Shown here in pieces: positions 901 through 19,020 of a stretch of 20,900 bases of DNA. Location: the IMG/VR virus record IMGVR_UViG_3300006919_000586, positions 1-20,900 of that record, one strand, 5' to 3'. Within the stretch, counting starts at the first letter, position 1. Each line of letters opens with the position of its first letter. The position numbers were made by a program, and so were the translations under genes. The stretch is from a virus. The notes beneath the pieces are model-generated. The model did no database searches, was not told the DNA's origin, and saw nothing but the letters and a program-made list of their open reading frames with translations.

Positions 901-1797
901 TTAATCGTCCTCAGCTAGTTTACTAAAATACGATAATGATTCATCATCATCGGTGGACGATACTTTCCCCACAGAGCCGTTAGAAGATTTGGGTACGTCA
1001 TTACTGACAGGTGGGAGGTCAATATCTTCTACAGACTCCGTGCTTCTTGTTCCAGTAAGTACCTTATTCAGTTTCTCTTTGAGTTCATCATAAGATTTAA
1101 AATTACTAGGATCAATGAAGGGTTTTAGAGCATATTGAGATTTCCATAATGCGTCAATCTCCTCGTCACTAGGTTTTACCCTACTAACTTGCTCAAATTC
1201 AGATTTATCATAATTCCAATAACCGTCAACTTTTCTGATTTTTAGTTTAAAGTTTGCACCTTCCCAAAAATCAAATGGGTTAACTGCCTTTTCATCTTCA
1301 AATTGAGGATTCATTGCTTCAGTTATTTTATCAAATATCTTTTTACCATATTTAAATAAAAATACCTTACCTTCATTTTCAGGATGTTTTGGATCAGATA
1401 CTACTAATACGTTTGAATAGTATTGTAGTTTTCTTTTTCTTTTTCTTGCAATCTCTTTATCAGCTTCAATACCAGTATTCCATAATCTAGTATTTTCTTC
1501 TGACACAGGATCTTTTTTGTTTAATGTTGTTAAACTATTTTCAATGTACCATTGACCACCAGGTCCTTGAAATGCGTGATGCCAGACTCTTTGCCAAGGC
1601 ATATCTTCGCCTTCTACAGCAGGTAAGAATCTTAATACTGCAAAACCATTACCTGATTTATCTAGTTCTGGTTTCCAGAATCTATCATCTTGGTACTTGT
1701 TTTTAGTTTCGGGTTTGTCGATTGTTTTTTCTAACTGTTTAGTTAGAACGTCAAAATTAGATTTTGACTTTTTGAGTGCTTCTAAAGCGTTTGACAT
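901..1797 (-). CDS. 32: gp32-like single-stranded DNA-binding protein
   Basis: Single-stranded DNA-binding protein that coats ssDNA in T4-type replication, recombination and repair and interacts with gp59 and the polymerase. It has 298 residues; T4 gp32 has about 301. The N-terminus has the basic cooperativity region (ALEALKKSKS). The core contains the family signature YYSNVLVVSDPKHPENEGKV followed by FKYGKKIFDKI. The C-terminus is a Ser/Asp-rich acidic tail ending in KLAEDD, the usual protein-interaction tail. There is no cysteine anywhere, so the zinc site of T4 gp32 is absent. The start has a strong AAGGAGAATAT ribosome site. Expression is probably late, from TATAAATA at 1861-1868, with an A/U-only leader that may be an autogenous operator. 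Confidence 0.96.
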   Translation of the reverse strand: MSNALEALKKSKSNFDVLTKQLEKTIDKPETKNKYQDDRFWKPELDKSGNGFAVLRFLPAVEGEDMPWQRVWHHAFQGPGGQWYIENSLTTLNKKDPVSEENTRLWNTGIEADKEIARKRKRKLQYYSNVLVVSDPKHPENEGKVFLFKYGKKIFDKITEAMNPQFEDEKAVNPFDFWEGANFKLKIRKVDGYWNYDKSEFEQVSRVKPSDEEIDALWKSQYALKPFIDPSNFKSYDELKEKLNKVLTGTRSTESVEDIDLPPVSNDVPKSSNGSVGKVSSTDDDESLSYFSKLAEDD

Positions 1798-1859: not shown

Positions 1860-1991
1860 TTATTTATAAGAGTTCTTCCATTCATTGTAACCTTTTAACC
1901 AGTTTTTATGTGAAGTTTTACCCTTATCACCTTTTAATCTTCTTTTTAAAGATCGCAAAGTTCTTAATAAGAAGTTTATTAATCTTAACAT
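1860..1991 (-). CDS. Small basic 43-residue protein, leaderless gene
   Basis: A 43-residue frame between gp32 and the sialyltransferase-like gene, starting MLRLINFLLR and ending NEWKNSYK. It is strongly basic (many Lys and Arg) with a hydrophobic N-terminal stretch. No family is recognised. Support comes from the promoter: a TTGACA/17 bp/TACAAT promoter at 1998-2026 ends six bases before the ATG, which places the predicted first transcribed base on the A of ATG. There is no Shine-Dalgarno site, as expected for a leaderless message. The same six-base spacing occurs at gp33. Could be non-coding, but the frame fills the gap exactly. Confidence 0.55.
   Translation of the reverse strand: MLRLINFLLRTLRSLKRRLKGDKGKTSHKNWLKGYNEWKNSYK
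1861..1868 (-). promoter_or_regulatory. T4-type late promoter for gp32
   Basis: On the minus strand this reads TATAAATA exactly, the T4 late -10 box recognised by gp55-RNA polymerase with gp33 and the sliding clamp. It lies 64 bases before the gp32 ATG. It overlaps the last codons of the 43-residue gene at 1860-1991, whose final Tyr-Lys-stop is spelled by the box itself. A gp33 gene in the same window makes late transcription plausible. Confidence 0.75.
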
Positions 1992-1997
1992 AGTTCT

Positions 1998-2026
1998 ATT
2001 GTATCATTCTTTCTGCAATTTGTCAA
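1998..2026 (-). promoter_or_regulatory. Sigma70-like promoter, extended -10
   Basis: Minus strand: -35 TTGACA (2021-2026), 17-bp spacer, -10 TACAAT (1998-2003) preceded by TGA, an extended -10. It begins inside the last codons of the upstream gene. Its -35 is part of a 7-bp hairpin (2023-2040). The likely first transcribed base is the ATG of the 43-residue gene at 1991. Confidence 0.8.
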
Positions 2027-2879
2027 GCAGCTGTGCTTGAGTTATATAATGAAGTTGTTTTCTTTCTTTCCACTTTCTCCATTCATCTATTTCTTTGTTT
2101 ATATTTTCTTTGTCTAATGCCTTATTGACTTTGTAAAACTTTATATTAGGATTCCAATCCATAAGTGTATACCATTGATTGACCCAATTTACGTGTGGTG
2201 TAGCAGAACCTTCAATCGGAGCATAATTTTTAGTACCTTTGTACATATTGTTTATTCTACCTGTATTTGATTGTAAGTCGTGTCCTATCAAATATATCTC
2301 ATCTGGATTTTCTAACTTTGTTGCTATGTAACCACTTGTTGCACCACAAGCCCAACCGTGGTCTTTATAATCAGTCCAGCAATCTTTAACGTCATTTGAT
2401 TTATCACCTTCTTTAATCCAAGATATGCTAATTGTTGCGTGTTTAATTTTAGTTTGTACTATTTCTTTTGTTGCTCTAGGATAATCTTTACGTGTCTTTC
2501 GTAAAATATTTACAACACCTTTTAATGACGATCCGTGTATAACAAATTCTTTTGAATCACCTCGTTCATTTTCTTTTACTGCGTCATAACCTTTAAGTTC
2601 TTTTAACTCATCTTCTGTACATAGGCCATTAACTACACTTTCATACATCATTGCAGGAACTTTAGTCCAATTTCTAAAGTAACAAGTTTTCTTCATTGCT
2701 ATTCCGCTATGATAAATCTCGTGTATGATACCATTATCAACAGCAGTTAGTACATCTATTAAGTCAGGATAATCTCTATAGATAGCATTACAACCATAAA
2801 TCTTACCATATGATTTTAATTGTTCTAAAGGAAAATCTTTACGACTTTCGCCATTGCCTATACAAAATACTCTTTTCAT
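2004..2879 (-). CDS. Sialyltransferase-like (GT42/DUF115-like) glycan enzyme
   Basis: A 291-residue soluble protein. The N-terminus VFCIGNGESRKDF, followed by YGCNAIYRDYP, resembles the nucleotide-sugar-binding start of GT42 sialyltransferases ('GNGPSL...CN.fy'). Near residues 180-205 TSGYIATKLENPDEIYLIGHD resembles the family's 'TSG...A..LGYKEIYLSGID'. These similarities suggest a glycosyltransferase or a related DUF115-like fold. The substrate cannot be told. The start overlaps the end of the DUF7220-like gene by four bases (ATGA), so translation is coupled. Its place between gp59 and gp32 is an insertion relative to T4 gene order. Confidence 0.6.
   Translation of the reverse strand: MKRVFCIGNGESRKDFPLEQLKSYGKIYGCNAIYRDYPDLIDVLTAVDNGIIHEIYHSGIAMKKTCYFRNWTKVPAMMYESVVNGLCTEDELKELKGYDAVKENERGDSKEFVIHGSSLKGVVNILRKTRKDYPRATKEIVQTKIKHATISISWIKEGDKSNDVKDCWTDYKDHGWACGATSGYIATKLENPDEIYLIGHDLQSNTGRINNMYKGTKNYAPIEGSATPHVNWVNQWYTLMDWNPNIKFYKVNKALDKENINKEIDEWRKWKERKQLHYITQAQLLDKLQKE
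2023..2040 (-). terminator. Hairpin overlapping gene end and promoter
   Basis: A 7-bp inverted repeat (TCAAGCA / TGCTTGA) with a four-base loop at the 3' end of the sialyltransferase-like gene. Its left plus-strand arm shares bases with the -35 box at 2021-2026. No U-tract follows. It may slow read-through or be a by-product of the extended GCTTGACA -35 motif. Confidence 0.3.
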
Positions 2880-3076
2880 TTTCTTTTTCTAAAGTACCAT
2901 CTCCAACAAGCAGACCTTGTCATAGACACTACGGTAAATATTATTGCTATACCAAAACTATCAAATATAGTAGGATGTAAATCAAATAAAGGAAATATAG
3001 TTAGTTGTATAATAACGGCTAAAAAGAAACCACTACCTACATCTATAACACTTTCTTTTATATCTTTTTTAATCAT
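2876..3076 (-). CDS. DUF7220-like two-helix membrane protein
   Basis: 66 residues. The order is a charged N-terminus with an ESVIDVG motif, a hydrophobic helix (FFLAVIIQLTIFPLF), a short turn, a second helix (FGIAIIFTVVSMTRS) and a basic end WRWYFRKRK. This layout, with a conserved 'S..RS....R.F' end, matches the small phage membrane family I know as DUF7220. The function of that family is not known. Overlaps the following gene by four bases and the preceding gene by eight, so it is within the gp33-gp59 transcript. Confidence 0.75.
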   Translation of the reverse strand: MIKKDIKESVIDVGSGFFLAVIIQLTIFPLFDLHPTIFDSFGIAIIFTVVSMTRSACWRWYFRKRK

Positions 3077-3329
3077 CTGTGTTTTTATCTCTTGTAACTA
3101 AGTTTTTTGGTTGTTCAATTGGCATTCCTGTTTTGTCAAACCAACGATTGTCTTTTGTTTTATAGACATAACTTAAACTACCGCTTTTAAGTTTGATTGA
3201 TTTTGTTTCAATTGAACCATTGTATGTTCGGCCGTTCTTGTTTATAAGTTCTAACGTGCCGTATAGATTTTGATATATTCTATCGCCTTCTAAATTTGAA
3301 AATGGAATTATTACTTGTTGTTGTGTCAT
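3069..3329 (-). CDS. Hypothetical protein, 86 residues
   Basis: Starts MTQQQVIIPF and has alternating polar/hydrophobic stretches that suggest a small beta-rich fold (residues 20-65), then a charged tail. No signal peptide, membrane segment or known motif. Its ATG overlaps the gp59 stop by four bases (ATGA) and its end overlaps the DUF7220-like gene, so it is co-translated between gp59 and the membrane protein. No family recognised. Confidence 0.75.
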   Translation of the reverse strand: MTQQQVIIPFSNLEGDRIYQNLYGTLELINKNGRTYNGSIETKSIKLKSGSLSYVYKTKDNRWFDKTGMPIEQPKNLVTRDKNTDD

Positions 3330-3931
3330 TGTACAAATACCTCCTTCATAATAAATTTACACTTCGTTAAGTTATAATTAACAAATGGTTTTAGTTTCTG
3401 TAACTTTTTAGAAAGTTCAGGCCAAATAACCGTTTCTTCAATTTGTTTATCCCAAGTTTTGATAAACGATAATATCTTATCCAACAAGATGATTGTCTGT
3501 ATTGAGATTTGCTTAGAAAGAAGTAACCGTAGCAATCTAGGATGTTGTCCCATAGATACAGTAAAAATATCGTCAAACTTACAATTATTATCGCTAATAA
3601 CGCTAACAATCCTATTACAATCCATTCTAAAATTGTATGTAAATGACTCAGTATATTTTTTCCACTTAATATAATTTGTTTCACCATCTGCTCTTATCAG
3701 ATTTCCTATCCAAGTCTTTGAGTTATCAAAGAAATTACAGACAAAGAAATCCACTAGTTCTTCTTTTTTATATTTAGTTGCTAATTTATGAAAGAAAAAC
3801 CTATCATTACGTTTTAAAAAACTGTTTAAACTAGAATTAACCTTTGCGTTGTGTTTAAAAAAATCATAGTTTTCAGTCGTAAAATGTAATTTAATAGCAA
3901 GATATAATTTATACGTTTCATAACTGTTCAT
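3326..3931 (-). CDS. 59: gp59-like loader of the gp41 replicative helicase
   Basis: Helicase-assembly protein. In T4 it binds fork DNA and gp32 and loads the gp41 helicase. It has 201 residues, close to T4 gp59 (217). Similarity runs along the length: SYETYKLYLAIKLHF near the start matches T4 'SVYKLYLMIKQH', KRNDRFFFHKLATKYKKEEL matches 'KRRDKYFFQKLSEKYKLKEL', TWIGNL matches 'AWIGDI', and the C-terminal half has the 'FETFILLD'-like SIQTIILLDKILSFI. The start overlaps the gp33 stop by four bases (ATGA). The gp33-gp59 order is as in T4, with gp32 further downstream. Confidence 0.9.
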   Translation of the reverse strand: MNSYETYKLYLAIKLHFTTENYDFFKHNAKVNSSLNSFLKRNDRFFFHKLATKYKKEELVDFFVCNFFDNSKTWIGNLIRADGETNYIKWKKYTESFTYNFRMDCNRIVSVISDNNCKFDDIFTVSMGQHPRLLRLLLSKQISIQTIILLDKILSFIKTWDKQIEETVIWPELSKKLQKLKPFVNYNLTKCKFIMKEVFVQ

Positions 3932-4149
3932 ATAGGCAATTTAGATGTGTTAGATTTTTCTAACAAATTTAGATTTTCAGCTTCTATTTGTATTTTTTCT
4001 TTTAAAGATTTGTTAATTAAAGATGAGACTGTGCCTGTGTCTATTTCATTTTCTTCACAATATTTTAAAACAGCCTCCATATAAGATACACGTTTTTTCT
4101 TAACTATGTCCTCAATGATCAAACCAAACTTTTTACTATTTAATAACAT
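3928..4149 (-). CDS. 33: gp33-like late-transcription co-activator (short form)
   Basis: In T4, gp33 bridges RNA polymerase beta-flap and the gp45 sliding clamp to activate late promoters. This 73-residue protein matches the T4 core: GLIIEDIVKKKRVSYMEAVL aligns with T4 'GFIIEKMVEEFGMSYLEAT', and KEKIQIEAENLNLLEKSNT aligns with 'IEKIQSEAIDENLL...EKTNT'. It lacks the T4 N-terminal extension (T4 is about 112 residues) and ends SKLPI where T4 ends LDFLL, the clamp-binding motif. The ATG lies six bases after a TATAAT box, so the message should be leaderless. First gene of the gp33-gp59 unit. Confidence 0.85.
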   Translation of the reverse strand: MLLNSKKFGLIIEDIVKKKRVSYMEAVLKYCEENEIDTGTVSSLINKSLKEKIQIEAENLNLLEKSNTSKLPI

Positions 4150-4155
4150 AGTATC

Positions 4156-4184
4156 ATTATATCATATTTTTAAAGATTTGTAAA
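4156..4184 (-). promoter_or_regulatory. Sigma70-like promoter for gp33-gp59 operon
   Basis: Minus strand: -35 TTTACA (4179-4184), 17-bp spacer, perfect -10 TATAAT (4156-4161) with TGA just before it (extended -10). The next six bases are GATACT and then the gp33 ATG, so the predicted start site falls on the ATG itself. It directly follows the hairpin at 4187-4210. Confidence 0.85.
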
Positions 4185-4186
4185 GT

Positions 4187-4210
4187 GCCTGTTTTTGTTA
4201 AGATACAGGC
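4187..4210 (-). terminator. Hairpin terminator after small lipoprotein gene
   Basis: Six-bp arms GCCTGT (4187-4192) and ACAGGC (4205-4210) with a 12-base loop, lying 12 bases past the stop of the lipoprotein gene and three bases before the -35 of the gp33 promoter. The downstream tract is ACTTTAC, only weakly U-rich. Position between two transcription units supports a terminator role. Confidence 0.5.
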
Positions 4211-4423: not shown

Positions 4424-4759
4424 TTACGCATTAGGTTTTAAATTTTCTAATACTTGCATTTTATTAAATGTATGATATAATATACAAGTTTCTAAGCCAT
4501 TAGGCACATCAACAGTTACCAATGTTTCACCTTTATCATTTTCATAATAAGTTACCATATAAACTGGTTCGCCATCTGGATCACTTGACTCTCTACCTAA
4601 ACTTAAATGTTTAGGAGATAACTCATTGTAATCTATGTAATTTTGAACATCCTCTGGTGCGCCACATACTGCAGGTAAATTTCTCCATACAAATGGAGTA
4701 TATTCTTCTGCAAATACGCTTGAACATAATAATGTTAAAATTAAAATTAATTTTTTCAT
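4424..4759 (-). CDS. Exported protein with Sec signal peptide, 111 residues
   Basis: Signal peptide MKKLILILTLLCSSVFA with likely cleavage after residue 17 (VFA, then EEY). The mature domain of about 94 residues has a PAVCGAPEDVQNY stretch and a later ETCILYH, so it may hold one disulfide in the periplasm. Similar small exported proteins are common in marine phages, but I know no assigned function. The start has an AAAGGGAAGT ribosome site. It probably shares the transcript of the nuclease gene from the 5584-5612 promoter. Confidence 0.75.
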   Translation of the reverse strand: MKKLILILTLLCSSVFAEEYTPFVWRNLPAVCGAPEDVQNYIDYNELSPKHLSLGRESSDPDGEPVYMVTYYENDKGETLVTVDVPNGLETCILYHTFNKMQVLENLKPNA

Positions 4760-4838: not shown

Positions 4839-5546
4839 CTATTTATTCAAGTTACTGTGTCTATCAAAGAAATCTTTAGCGTGTTTGTAGAACAACTCTT
4901 GGTGTTCTTTTATTTTATCTTCACCGTGTATCCATTCTTGTACAAAACCATCTTCACAAGCAGCCAAGATAACAGTTTGTTCTATCTTCTTACTAGGATA
5001 TAATTCTTCAAACATTTTAGCATAAGCTGAAGTTTGTAAAAAGTTACCATAGTTATAATCTGCGTCTCGTTTTTTTGTAGATGTTTTAAAATCAACTACA
5101 GATAGTTTACCTTTGTATTCAGCAATACAATCTACTTGACCTGCAACACCTAATTCTTTAGAGTACAGATATTCTTCTAAGCAATGTATATTATCTATTC
5201 TGGCAAGATATGGTTTGATAATTCTAAAAAGACCTAACGCTGTAACAGCAGTTATGCCTATGTTCTTTTCATCTTCGTTCTTTAAATGATTTTCTATAAG
5301 TGTGTGTGTAGTTTTACCTCTATTAGTAGAAGTAACAGAAATAAAGTTAGCCATTTTTTCACCAACACTATTTCTCCAAGCCAATATCTTTTGTTGTCTT
5401 TCAGGTATTGAACCTAATATGGAAGTAACTGAAGGCATATTGACACCATCAATAGTATAATATCTTATACCATCTTGGTTTTTACCTTTCACACCCAAAC
5501 TTTTGGGTAATACCGATTCTTCTAATTTCACGTGATTGTATGCCAT
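4839..5546 (-). CDS. PD-(D/E)XK (RecB/Mgme1-like) exonuclease
   Basis: 235 residues with the ordered motifs of RecB-type nucleases: MPSVTSIL (37-44), GKTTH with a likely motif-I His81, LEEYLYS (about 123-129), GVAGQVD with metal-binding Asp139, VDFKTS with Asp152 and catalytic Lys154, and QTSAYA (171-176), the family's Q...Y motif. All key residues are present, so it should cut DNA from ends with two metal ions. Roles in host DNA degradation or recombination are both possible. It heads a transcript from a consensus promoter at 5584-5612 and has an AGAAGG ribosome site. Confidence 0.88.
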   Translation of the reverse strand: MAYNHVKLEESVLPKSLGVKGKNQDGIRYYTIDGVNMPSVTSILGSIPERQQKILAWRNSVGEKMANFISVTSTNRGKTTHTLIENHLKNEDEKNIGITAVTALGLFRIIKPYLARIDNIHCLEEYLYSKELGVAGQVDCIAEYKGKLSVVDFKTSTKKRDADYNYGNFLQTSAYAKMFEELYPSKKIEQTVILAACEDGFVQEWIHGEDKIKEHQELFYKHAKDFFDRHSNLNK

Positions 5547-6925: not shown

Positions 6926-7240
6926 TTATTTAGTTTTTGATTTTTGTCTAGCACGATGCTTTTTGATTACCTGTTCAGTTTTCACTTGTTTTATTGACTT
7001 TTTACCATATTGTTGTGCTAATGCACTTTGTGGATGAGCTTCTGATATTTTACTTAATACTTCTTTAAATCCTTGATCATTTTTGTAAGTAATACCTGAA
7101 ACACCAGCAACAATATTCATTCTTTTAGGTACTTGTCTGATATGTGGGTTTTTAGATAGATACTCTTCCATTTCAGCAATGGTCATTATATCATCCCATT
7201 CTTTATTTGTTTTGGTATTAATAAATGAATATGATGGCAT
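6926..7240 (-). CDS. Conserved phage protein with FmdB-like N-terminus, 104 residues
   Basis: MPSYSFINTKTNKEWDDIM at the start recalls the FmdB-like 'MP.Y.F.....G.e.e..M' pattern of T4-like cyanophage proteins, but the zinc-ribbon cysteines are missing. ISEAHPQSALAQ sits in the middle and the C-terminal tail is Lys/Arg-rich (KKHRARQKSKTK), suggesting nucleic-acid contact. The ATG overlaps the preceding stop by one base (TAATG) and no Shine-Dalgarno is seen, so translation is probably coupled. Function unknown. Confidence 0.75.
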   Translation of the reverse strand: MPSYSFINTKTNKEWDDIMTIAEMEEYLSKNPHIRQVPKRMNIVAGVSGITYKNDQGFKEVLSKISEAHPQSALAQQYGKKSIKQVKTEQVIKKHRARQKSKTK

Positions 7241-7632
7241 TATTTTAAAGATAGATGATATAATACATCACTAACAGCTTCCATCATATCTTCTAATACA
7301 CTTTCTAAATCTATGAAGTGACCATTTTTATCGTCTTCACTAAATTGTAAACTAAACAAAGCAAGATCATCTTTAAATCGTCTTATCATAGATGTTAATT
7401 CTTTTAAATCAGAATAATTAGTTAGGCTGGATTTATAATCTGGACTATATTTAATTCTAGTGCCTGTGTTACCTTGATAGATTTCTACAAATCGGTCATT
7501 CAAAGTATTAAATTTAGTGTAAAATTCTCCTAAAGCTTCGTGTTCAGCATATGACTCAGTTTGCCAATGAGCAACTTGAATATCATTTAAGAAAAATATA
7601 TTGTGATTTATAAATTGTGCTATATGATTCAT
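7240..7632 (-). CDS. DUF5856-like conserved phage protein, 130 residues
   Basis: An all-helical protein with the signature AHWQTESYAEHEALGEFY near residues 20-38, then NDRFVEIYQG and a C-terminal helix pair with acidic residues. I associate 'hWQT.SYA.H.alg.fY' with the DUF5856 family of marine T4-like phages. The layout recalls a ferritin/Dps-like helical bundle, but metal-site residues are not confirmed. The ribosome site is weak; it follows the Cys-rich gene by eight bases. Confidence 0.75.
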   Translation of the reverse strand: MNHIAQFINHNIFFLNDIQVAHWQTESYAEHEALGEFYTKFNTLNDRFVEIYQGNTGTRIKYSPDYKSSLTNYSDLKELTSMIRRFKDDLALFSLQFSEDDKNGHFIDLESVLEDMMEAVSDVLYHLSLK

Positions 7633-9070: not shown

Positions 9071-9253
9071 TTAATGTATATCCCTTCTGTATATATCCAT
9101 ACGACCATACTTCTTACATAATTTTTCAAACACATTAAACCAATAGTTTTTGGCCCAATTTGAAGTTGAATTTTTGCAAGCCTTTTTGGCGTTGTCTATT
9201 CTTTTGATTTCTTTTGATTTATAGATTCTATCTATATCTTCTTTAGTCAACAT
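9071..9253 (-). CDS. Hypothetical basic protein, 60 residues, near-leaderless start
   Basis: The ATG at 9253 (MLTKEDIDRIYKSKEIKR) is preferred over an in-frame ATG at 9283, because the latter lies inside the promoter spacer and would not be transcribed from it. The -10 box ends 10 bases before 9253, leaving a leader of only about two to four bases and no Shine-Dalgarno. The protein is basic and Tyr/Lys-rich with a KKYGRMDIYRRDIH tail. No family recognised. First gene of an operon running to 5617. Confidence 0.65.
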   Translation of the reverse strand: MLTKEDIDRIYKSKEIKRIDNAKKACKNSTSNWAKNYWFNVFEKLCKKYGRMDIYRRDIH

Positions 9254-9305: not shown

Positions 9306-10247
9306 TTATTTTTTGTCATTCCAATCGTATATTTGATTTAATTTTAACTTAATTTCATCTGGATCTAACGAATCTAAGTCTCTTTCAACTAGTTTTCTAA
9401 AGTCACGGTCTTTTTTCTTTAGTTCTTTACTTTGTTTTTCAAGTCGTTGCAACTTGTCTTCTAATCTTTTTTCTTCTTTTGCTTTTGTTAAATTTCTTTT
9501 AAGTCTCCATTGTCTCAATGATATGTTGGCTGCAATTAAAAGTAATACTGCAAGTGGATCAAATACAAATATTAAAATTAGTATTACAATTCTGACCGCT
9601 TCATCAAAATGACTTTTTGCGTCATCACCATATATAAGTTCAGCAACATATTTAATAGGTCCTACTTCGGCCTCTATCTTATCTTGTGCTAATTGTAGAT
9701 TGGCCTTTTCTGTAGATAGTTTAGCAATCTCATCACTTGCGTTTTTAATTGCTGTGTTTAATTCGTTTCTTTCTGCTTCTTGTTTCTGTCTTTCTTTTAA
9801 TCCTCGTGTAGCATATTCATTGTTTAAATAAACTTCTATTGACTTATCTAATTGTGTTAATGTTTTTTCTGCTCGATCAATAACAATTTCTTGTCTTTTA
9901 ATTTGATTATCTATTGCATTAATCTTTATTGTGTTACCAGATGTGGGTTGTACTTGATCAAGGTGTGCCTTTGATAAGAACCCAAAGATACCCATAGATG
10001 TAATGAATATTAAAACTATAATTGCACTAAACAGATATGCTTTTAAAGTAGCTGGCACCATATCTGAGCGCCAATTATTATAGAGCCAAGATGCGGCTAC
10101 TAACTTACCTATTTCTAATGCACTACCCATAGCAATAATTGGCATAGCAGCGCCAGCAAATAATGTTGCTAATCCTATGATTGAGTAACCAGCAGCAATG
10201 ATTGAAATACTGATGGCTGATAGAAAGGTTATAAGTATTAAAAACAT
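9306..10247 (-). CDS. Multi-helix membrane protein with long coiled coil
   Basis: 313 residues from an ATG at 10247 (a TTG at 10271 is the alternative; neither has a strong ribosome site). It starts with three hydrophobic segments (about 1-25, 30-50 and 70-95, ending ITSMGIFGFLSKAHL), then a coiled-coil region of about 100 residues (IDNQIKRQEIVIDRAEKTL onward). A fourth membrane helix is VILILIFVFDPLAVLLLIAA (about 220-240), followed by a second charged coiled coil to the end. Similar coil-containing membrane proteins occur in marine T4-like phages without known role. It may organise the inner membrane or block superinfection, but that is speculation. Confidence 0.8.
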   Translation of the reverse strand: MFLILITFLSAISISIIAAGYSIIGLATLFAGAAMPIIAMGSALEIGKLVAASWLYNNWRSDMVPATLKAYLFSAIIVLIFITSMGIFGFLSKAHLDQVQPTSGNTIKINAIDNQIKRQEIVIDRAEKTLTQLDKSIEVYLNNEYATRGLKERQKQEAERNELNTAIKNASDEIAKLSTEKANLQLAQDKIEAEVGPIKYVAELIYGDDAKSHFDEAVRIVILILIFVFDPLAVLLLIAANISLRQWRLKRNLTKAKEEKRLEDKLQRLEKQSKELKKKDRDFRKLVERDLDSLDPDEIKLKLNQIYDWNDKK

Positions 10248-17470: not shown

Positions 17471-17800
17471 TTATATTTTCCTTCCCATTGATTTAAAATC
17501 AGATTTATCTACAACTTGGTAAGTGCCTTTGTTGTAACCAATACTGATTGTTTTACCTTCAGGTAATTGTGCCATAACTACTTTTCTTTTAACACATACC
17601 CCAGGTATTCTATTGCCAAGTGGCACAGAATTTTTTACTTCATAATCAGGTAATTTAAATCCTTTAAAGACATTTTTTATTTTACCTGTTTTTAAATTGA
17701 TTGAAACACCTAAAGATTTAATCCACTTCCAGTGTTCTAATTTCAATCTATTTAACTTTTGTTTTTTTGTTTCTTCTTTTAAGATCCTTTTGAATCTCAT
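17471..17800 (-). CDS. Conserved-looking basic phage protein, 109 residues
   Basis: The N-terminus RFKRILKEETKKQKLNRLKL is basic and helical. The rest is beta-rich: NLKTGKIKNVFKGFKLPDYE, GNRIPGVCVKRKVVMA and YNKGTYQVVDKSDFKSMGRK. The layout (basic helix, then 'G....vF.g.klP.y') recalls proteins conserved in T4-like pelagiphages and cyanophages, without a function I can name. AGGAGA lies seven bases before the ATG, inside the overlapping (53 bases) membrane protein gene. Confidence 0.7.
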   Translation of the reverse strand: MRFKRILKEETKKQKLNRLKLEHWKWIKSLGVSINLKTGKIKNVFKGFKLPDYEVKNSVPLGNRIPGVCVKRKVVMAQLPEGKTISIGYNKGTYQVVDKSDFKSMGRKI

Positions 17801-17972
17801 CTAGTTCTCCTAAATCACTTGTAGCACTATCACAAACTTTCATCATAGTCTTACAATTTCTTTTCATTCTGTCTAGTATAACACCACAATCTTGTAATGT
17901 CAAGTAAACATAACCTAGACCTATCAATATAATTGTTAATGTAATAATTGAAAATATTTCTGAATCTATCAT
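17748..17972 (-). CDS. Small membrane-anchored coiled protein, 74 residues
   Basis: MIDSEIFSIITLTIILIGLG begins with one membrane helix, followed by a basic Cys-containing stretch (DRMKRNCKTMMKVCDSATSD) and a charged helix (LGELDEIQKDLKRRNKKTKV). Ribosome site AAAGGAGAAGGAAT. It overlaps the upstream gene by four bases (ATGA) and the downstream gene by 53. No family recognised. Confidence 0.7.
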   Translation of the reverse strand: MIDSEIFSIITLTIILIGLGYVYLTLQDCGVILDRMKRNCKTMMKVCDSATSDLGELDEIQKDLKRRNKKTKVK

Positions 17973-18612: not shown

Positions 18613-19020
18613 TTAGTTCATTTGGTTAATATATTGTTGTCTTTTAGTTTTGTAATCCTCAATAATTTTTGGATTAAAATCGTATTTAAAAAATTGTCTT
18701 GTATTCCACAACTGGCCATAGTCATTAAATAAGTTATTGTCACCAACTGCAACATCGCCAAAAGCGTCTTCATAAGTTTTGTAGTATTCTTTGTTTGATA
18801 AAATTCTAACAACTGTATTGCCTACAAAGTTACTTGCGTCTTCTTTATAATTCTTATCACAATAGTTTTTGATTTTATCTTTGTATTGCATTAATGTAGT
18901 TACTAGATTTGCTGGTACGTTTCTGAATATAGTATTGTAAACATAAAAAAACTCATCTGATCTGTCATCTGAATCCTGATATTCTCTGCCGTAAACTAAA
19001 TGATATAATTTTTTTGTCAT
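18613..19020 (-). CDS. Hypothetical protein, 135 residues, near-leaderless start
   Basis: MTKKLYHLVYGREYQDSDDR opens a Tyr/Asp/Asn-rich protein with FFYVYNTIFRNVPANLVTTL, a Cys at about 53 and a charged C-terminus (YDFNPKIIEDYKTKRQQYIN). No motif recognised. The ATG follows a -10 box by eight bases and has no Shine-Dalgarno site, so the leader should be one or two bases. First gene of the operon behind the promoter at 19029-19057. Confidence 0.72.
   Translation of the reverse strand: MTKKLYHLVYGREYQDSDDRSDEFFYVYNTIFRNVPANLVTTLMQYKDKIKNYCDKNYKEDASNFVGNTVVRILSNKEYYKTYEDAFGDVAVGDNNLFNDYGQLWNTRQFFKYDFNPKIIEDYKTKRQQYINQMN

Follow-up and report, generated by a model that had tools for sequence, protein, structure and literature searches.

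The window analysed here is a 20.9-kilobase (kb) virus fragment from a virus collection (IMG/VR record IMGVR_UViG_3300006919_000586, 20,900 nucleotides (nt)). It carries two genes, gp33 and a gene of 43 residues, whose promoters lie so close to the start codon that the predicted messages lack a 5' leader. Host-type and late promoters alike very likely serve leaderless initiation in T4-like phages of the group to which the window belongs, with the first transcribed base (+1) of gp33 and of the 43-residue gene predicted, from promoter position, to be the A of AUG. The usual spacing from -10 element to start would put the first transcribed base on the A of ATG where d, the count of bases separating the -10 from the ATG, is six. 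The elements concerned are as follows, with the source of each in brackets.

3928..4149, minus strand: gp33, late-transcription coactivator, 73 residues, predicted leaderless (phrog_254 profile)
4150..4155, minus strand: gp33 discriminator GATACT, 6 nt, with the predicted +1 at the A of ATG 4149 (sequence)
4156..4161, minus strand: gp33 promoter -10 TATAAT, with TGn, its last base 6 nt ahead of the ATG (promoter scan)
4179..4184, minus strand: gp33 promoter -35 TTTACA (promoter scan)
1860..1991, minus strand: 43-residue gene, predicted leaderless, the first gene ahead of gp32 (near-identical and related open reading frames (ORFs) in relatives; purifying selection)
1992-1997, minus strand: discriminator AGAACT of the 43-residue gene (sequence)
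1998..2003, minus strand: -10 TACAAT of the 43-residue gene, with TGn (promoter scan)
2021..2026, minus strand: -35 TTGACA of the 43-residue gene (promoter scan)

The start of gp33 reads TTTACA-17-TATAAT-GATACT-ATG and that of the 43-residue gene TTGACA-17-TACAAT-AGAACT-ATG, each with a TG one base before the -10, 11 of 12 consensus positions matched and d=6, so the identical geometry that the initial annotation had described at these two genes is confirmed. Both have the parts of a sigma70 promoter (a -35, a spacer of 16-18 nt, here 17, and a -10, here preceded by TGn), an assignment by consensus match only. A Shine-Dalgarno (SD) sequence is found at neither start (0/2). The match of gp33 to phrog_254, annotated "late promoter transcriptional regulator", has an E-value of 8.5e-25 and covers the whole protein (residues 2-73 on 9-82 of 84), and upstream of the ATG at 4149 there is no in-frame start codon (identical loci L003 and L004). 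The nearest upstream minus-strand ORF stops 72 nt ahead of gp33, and the gap holds a hairpin, GCCTG...CAGGC, at window positions 4187-4210, directly ahead of the gp33 promoter.

Among the window's genes, profile matches cover a helicase loader, an exonuclease and an endolysin family in addition to gp33 and gp32. The window's gp32 is 72% identical to that of Pelagibacter phage Mosig and 67% to that of HTVC008M; these are the top isolate matches, and both infect SAR11. We infer from this similarity that the window comes from a T4-like phage near the pelagimyophages (phages of SAR11), and the contig's own host would follow by the same reasoning. Relatives were taken from IMG/VR, 39 loci by way of gp33 and the best 80 of at least 600 by way of gp32, together with isolates; relatives of the 43-residue gene were reached through its neighbour gp32. 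Thirteen distant loci (L029-L041) are excluded from the gp33 and pooled counts and, counted apart, have near-ATG promoters at 0 of 15 sites.

The gp33 geometry recurs among these relatives. Once contexts with fewer than 45 nt upstream are excluded, the -10 is placed 4-10 nt before the ATG in 35 of 54 distinct 45-nt gp33 upstream contexts from relatives and isolates, with d of 6 in 23 of them, 7 in 5, 5 in 3, 8 in 2, 9 in 1 and 10 in 1; Mosig gp33 has d=6. A stricter promoter cut is passed by 32 contexts, comprising 16 lineages less than 75% mutually identical, with d of 5-8. One context, L078, was scored as non-adjacent although a TATATA stands six bases before its ATG. Where gp33 homologues start 2-3 codons before the MNSK position (as MLL, MLM, MNLM, MMLM or MKLM), the first ATG still lies at or within 1 base of the predicted +1. 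The initial annotation had named conserved SD leaders in relatives as evidence that would count against leaderlessness. These are mostly not seen, an SD being present in 1 of the 35 contexts with an adjacent promoter versus 7 of the 19 without (p 0.002), with HTVC008M and Melnitz as real exceptions. The raw SD flag stood at 16/35; 15 of these are a GTGA belonging to the extended -10 (to the -10 plus discriminator in L097 and L106), which leaves L093. Several of the 19 non-adjacent contexts overlap an upstream stop codon, as judged by eye, and this together with the 7/19 suggests that loss of the adjacent promoter tends to accompany an ordinary gp33 start. A permuted transfer-messenger RNA (tmRNA) lies upstream of gp33 in many relatives, from adjoining to roughly 550 nt off (L017, L020, L042, L043, L058, L070, L075, L080, L083 and L093); an RNA scan found no tmRNA in the window.

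Upstream of gp32 the same arrangement is found, together with two further elements.

1861..1868, minus strand: late motif TATAAATA of the T4 type, upstream of gp32 and sharing bases with the stop codon of the 43-residue gene (sequence)
901..1797, minus strand: gp32, single-stranded DNA-binding protein, with SD AAAGGAG (phrog_224, E 2.7e-111; leader read)

The 43-residue ORF has the marks of a genuine gene under purifying selection: among 38 pairs of 60-97% identity in its family, the ratio of nonsynonymous to synonymous differences (pN/pS) has a median of 0.34 and is always under 1. Two members of the family searched gave no Pfam or PHROG match. The 100 gp32-matching loci comprise 58 distinct promoter-ATG pairs, 21 loci without a pair and 21 near a contig end or duplicate. 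Among the 58, d is 6 in 37, 9 in 11, 7 in 7, 8 in 2 and 5 in 1, and 39 of the pairs encode the 43-residue family. In these 39 the late motif [N]ATAAATA lies between -9 and +3 relative to the stop codon in 31, 22 nt before it in 5 and 22 nt after it in 1, and is absent in 2. All 39 have an SD-bearing start within 120 nt after the small gene; the ATG was chosen for its SD, so this is circular as a count, and in the rows compared the chosen start is no more than about 6 nt from the gp32 start given by alignment. It is likely that gp32 is made from two messages, an early bicistronic one in which SD-led gp32 follows the leaderless small gene, and a late one that starts with an SD and carries gp32. 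In the window the late motif spans the last codons and the stop of the 43-residue gene, whose C-terminal -YK thus doubles as promoter sequence. In L048, L055, L062, L103, L116 and L120 the 43-residue gene is absent, and a promoter with an ATG at d of 6-9 is still present ahead of gp32; the short ORFs that begin there are unrelated and extend over the start of gp32. A recurring element also lies upstream of gp32 in L126 (about 4985-5230), L072, L076, L078, L079, L090, L114 and L122, and its apparent ORFs, beginning MRK or MLK, resemble structured RNA. Rfam gave no match for it in L072, L076, L090 and L114, so that the assignment of MRK, MRN and MLK to RNA is by judgement. In Mosig, a manA RNA match lies upstream of rubrerythrin, and the MQK region overlaps it. 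ORFs starting MRK, MRN or MQK are left out of the counts below as likely parts of structured RNAs, except where stated, and MLK is also left out of the count of the base before ATG.

Across the relatives, distances from sigma70 promoter to ATG are bimodal, the starts being either leaderless or SD-led. Over 314 sites, a count that still contains the MRK, MRN and MQK ORFs, 51 have d=6, none falls at 13-17, and a second group of 49 lies at 23-37. With the structured-RNA ORFs dropped, 251 sites in 105 contigs give 81 at d of 4-10, 8 at 11-22 and 40 at 23-37; an SD is present at 6 of the 81 near-ATG sites versus 30 of the 40 at 23-37 (Fisher p about 4e-14, with an SD word list that differs from that used for the gp33 contexts). 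Near-ATG sigma70 promoters precede seven homologues of the window's exonuclease, 42-46% identical, with d of 6-9; in the window itself the exonuclease gene starts behind a leader (d=37).

The bases around the predicted start points carry a signature of their own. At d=6 (312 sites) the codon is ATG in 75 cases, GTG in 1 and TTG in 1; an enrichment of GTG or TTG starts at the predicted +1 was sought and not found. T or C precedes the ATG at 80 of 94 promoter-adjacent starts and at all 27 late starts with d=5, versus 142 of the 356 starts that are SD-led. Both features fit a transcript that starts at the A and a need for AUG; with the near absence of SD sequences, they are what naturally leaderless messages display. 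The suggestion in the initial annotation that the leaderless starts look selected is borne out in that d stays near six in divergent relatives.

The same design would be used on the phage's own T4-type late promoters. The late motif TATAAATA lies at d of 4-10 in 35 of 172 contig sites, 21 of them at d=5, and an SD is present at 1 of these 35 versus 17 of 18 sites at 23-37. For the shorter ATAAATA, the fraction at d=5 is 51/337 in the contigs, 9/45 in HTVC008M, 6/56 in Mosig, 3/42 in Melnitz (weak) and 2/6 in the window, where the two are:

7240..7632, minus strand: 130-residue protein (phrog_858, DUF5856), late-type AATAAATA at d=5, as AATAAATA-N5-ATG (relatives share the start sequence, at d=5)
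9306..10247, minus strand: 313-residue ORF, late-type AATAAATA at d=5, ATG at 10247 (starts of relatives look similar by eye, also at d=5)

No ATAAATA site has d=5 in 150 kb of cyanophage P-SSM7 (0/24). The 51 contig sites comprise 11 protein families, the largest of which (31) is the DNA end protector, a name taken from the annotation of Mosig and HTVC008M. The late-motif start of gp25 has d=8 in Mosig and d=5 in HTVC008M, and the annotated HTVC008M starts of gp25 and the end protector agree with the ATGs adjacent to late motifs. Leaderlessness as a feature of early genes only is rejected, as late motifs have it too.

AT-rich, TATAAT-like words might lie near ATGs by chance, with the true leaders going undetected. 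Weak promoter-like matches in the first half of the window are indeed as frequent as in shuffles (58 versus a mean of 58.4). Strong promoters behave otherwise: on the minus strand, 4 of 7 have an ATG-initiated ORF at 4-10 nt (d = 6, 6, 7 and 9), against 0 of 2 on the plus strand. The window was shuffled 200 times with dinucleotides preserved, and both strands were scored for strong promoters followed at 4-10 nt by an ATG-ORF of 35 codons or more; such cases number 0.035 per shuffle on average and never more than 1. The arrangement in the window therefore exceeds chance. Besides gp33 and the 43-residue gene, the sigma70-type cases in the window are as follows.

9071..9253, minus strand: 60-residue gene, promoter TTGACT-17-TATAAT, d=9, predicted to be near-leaderless with some 3 nt of leader (promoter scan; homologues in relatives)
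17748..17867, minus strand: 39-residue ORF, predicted near-leaderless, TTGACA-17-TATACT, d=7 (promoter scan; absent from the initial annotation)
18613..19020, minus strand: 135-residue ORF, weak promoter TTGACT-17-TAAAGT (weak -10), d=8, leader about 2 nt (promoter scan)

The short leaders previously proposed at 9253 and 19020 are thus recovered as predictions. The ORFs starting at 9253 and 17867 sit within longer reading frames that cross the promoter, which makes the leaderless ATG the likelier start. Five homologues of the 60-residue gene are among the near-ATG sigma70 starts of the relatives, with d of 7-9. In the relatives, two scrambled motifs still gave 6 sites at d of 3-10 over all groups (5 in the gp33 loci), few beside the 85 real ones, and four control motifs for the late promoter gave at most 3 sites at d=5 in any source. 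With these low control counts, the single-base peak in distance, the window shuffles and the recurrence in divergent relatives, coincidence is extremely unlikely.

Other observations weigh against leaderless initiation as read here, or blunt the figures for it, as do the scrambled-motif matches just given. Two of the late-motif controls, which overlap the motif itself, peak at other distances in the contigs, AAATATA with 12 sites at d=4 and ATATAAA with 9 at d=7; the first peak is the late motif in a shifted register (ATAAATA inside 12 of 12), and we assume the same shift for the second. Only sites with identical surrounding sequence were collapsed, so contexts are not independent, and the related contigs retained inflate site counts and p-values. 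The isolates have few near-ATG sigma70 sites, with 5/34 in Mosig and 1/25 in HTVC008M; elsewhere they number 2/36 in Melnitz, 2/27 in P-SSM7 (100 kb) and 0/12 in T4 (50 kb), and three SAR11 podophages have only 4 strong sigma70 sites, 0 of them near an ATG, which is uninformative. Transcription start points can shift by 1-2 nt. The geometry is missing from 19 of the 54 gp33 contexts, HTVC008M among them, where gp33 has an SD-like AGGA and a start that overlaps the upstream gene; in Melnitz gp33 is SD-led. At some sites with d of 8-9 (L093, L095, L096, L099 and L100), AGGA or AGAGG lies between the -10 and the ATG and could serve as an SD in read-through messages.

Such messages underlie an alternative in which the promoters are real and serve downstream genes, while translation of gp33 and the small gene relies mostly on longer read-through transcripts, through translational coupling or unrecognised sites. 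The window's genes are densely packed on one strand, and stop-start overlaps at gp33 occur in several promoter-less relatives, including HTVC008M, as judged by eye. Read-through translation nevertheless leaves the scarcity of SD sequences at promoter-adjacent gp33 starts without a reason, as it does the excess of ATG at the predicted +1 over GTG, TTG and neighbouring positions, and in the window the 72-nt gap and its hairpin separate gp33 from the ORF upstream. We regard it as quite unlikely.

Under leaderless initiation, host RNA polymerase would transcribe gp33 and the 43-residue gene from strong sigma70 promoters starting at the A of AUG, giving predicted mRNAs with neither a 5' leader nor an SD. 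Translation would begin by recognition of the 5'-terminal AUG, probably through initiation of the 70S type. This phage group would have two alternative start designs, in which the first gene after a promoter is either leaderless (its ATG mostly 5-9 nt past the -10) or provided with a leader of SD length. For gp33, the leaderless design would make an independent transcription unit in minimal space. The initial annotation had offered the conjecture that a leaderless late-transcription activator could escape a translation competition governed by ribosome-binding-site strength. A special device for gp33 is not supported, as the same arrangement is found at the ORF before gp32 and at the homologues of the exonuclease and of the 60-residue gene, with the late motif at the end protector, gp25 and others.

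What purpose the design serves is a separate matter. Leaderless starts could reflect genome compaction without any regulation, in a host whose ribosomes accept leaderless mRNAs, a reading compatible with leaderless initiation and to which we give about an even chance. The geometry is found at genes of unrelated function, and leaderless mRNAs have been mapped in other Alphaproteobacteria, 171 in Sinorhizobium (PMC3616915) and 119 in Zymomonas (PMC7566282). The same genes, however, keep the geometry in many lineages while gp32 just downstream is SD-led, which suggests a gene-specific preference. An unlikely elaboration is that SAR11 T4-like phages keep leaderless and SD-led translation as two channels, their own translation genes moving the host ribosome from one to the other during infection. 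Ribosomal protein S21, on its appearance, would favour SD-led mRNAs, so that leaderless gp33 would be made before the switch. S21 and peptide deformylase are both present in Mosig and Melnitz, and S21 in HTVC008M; the two are called core in pelagimyophages (PMC7029224). Melnitz, which carries both genes and yet has an SD-led gp33, argues against a tight link.

One further match in the window, to the SAM-II riboswitch (RF00521, 4748-4818, minus strand), scores 23.1 bits, below the gathering score of 36, with an E-value of 0.0075 in an 801-nt search. It lies directly upstream of a 111-residue ORF (4424-4759) whose start looks secreted-protein-like by eye.

Several known systems share features with the one described here. 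T4 has the gp33 family and the late motif TATAAATA; it differs in that ATAAATA has an ATG at d=5 in 0 of 40 sites of the 100 kb examined. Phage lambda cI is a single gene of a temperate phage, whereas here several genes of a T4-like phage are concerned, recurring in relatives. The cI regulator is read from a leaderless mRNA (PMC9031893), as gp33 is predicted to be. The lytic Thermus phage phiYS40 also has many leaderless messages, which raised levels of initiation factor IF2 and lowered IF3 are said in a review to favour, and which the review ties to middle and late genes (PMC3594737). It belongs to another phage group, with a host of another phylum; here leaderlessness is predicted at sigma70-type and late-type promoters. 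In Deinococcus-Thermus a -10 directly before the ORF also yields leaderless mRNA, although there the genes are cellular and no -35 is needed, while here a -35, a 17-nt spacer and an extended -10 are present (PMC12340547). Melnitz, an OM43 methylophage related to pelagimyophages, has the same gp33 neighbourhood, including a two-piece tmRNA upstream of gp33 (PMC9004378), and shares the weak late peak at d=5; its gp33 and gp32, by contrast, are SD-led. No earlier report of leaderless starts in SAR11 phages, cyanophages or T4-like phages was found among the literature matches listed, with most subscription papers and all of bioRxiv outside the scope of the search. In the Mosig and Melnitz papers the word "leaderless" occurs once each, within a reference title.

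Leaderless mRNAs as such are already known; in the present phages, relatives of those that infect very abundant marine bacteria, they seem to be a systematic way of starting genes, one that spans host-type and phage late promoters and includes the gene of a late-transcription regulator. For the cultured phages Mosig and HTVC008M it predicts start points to the single base, and it would correct gene starts such as those at 9253 and 17867. Promoter detection developed on cyanophages failed in pelagimyophages (PMC7029224), and the leaderless design may explain that failure.

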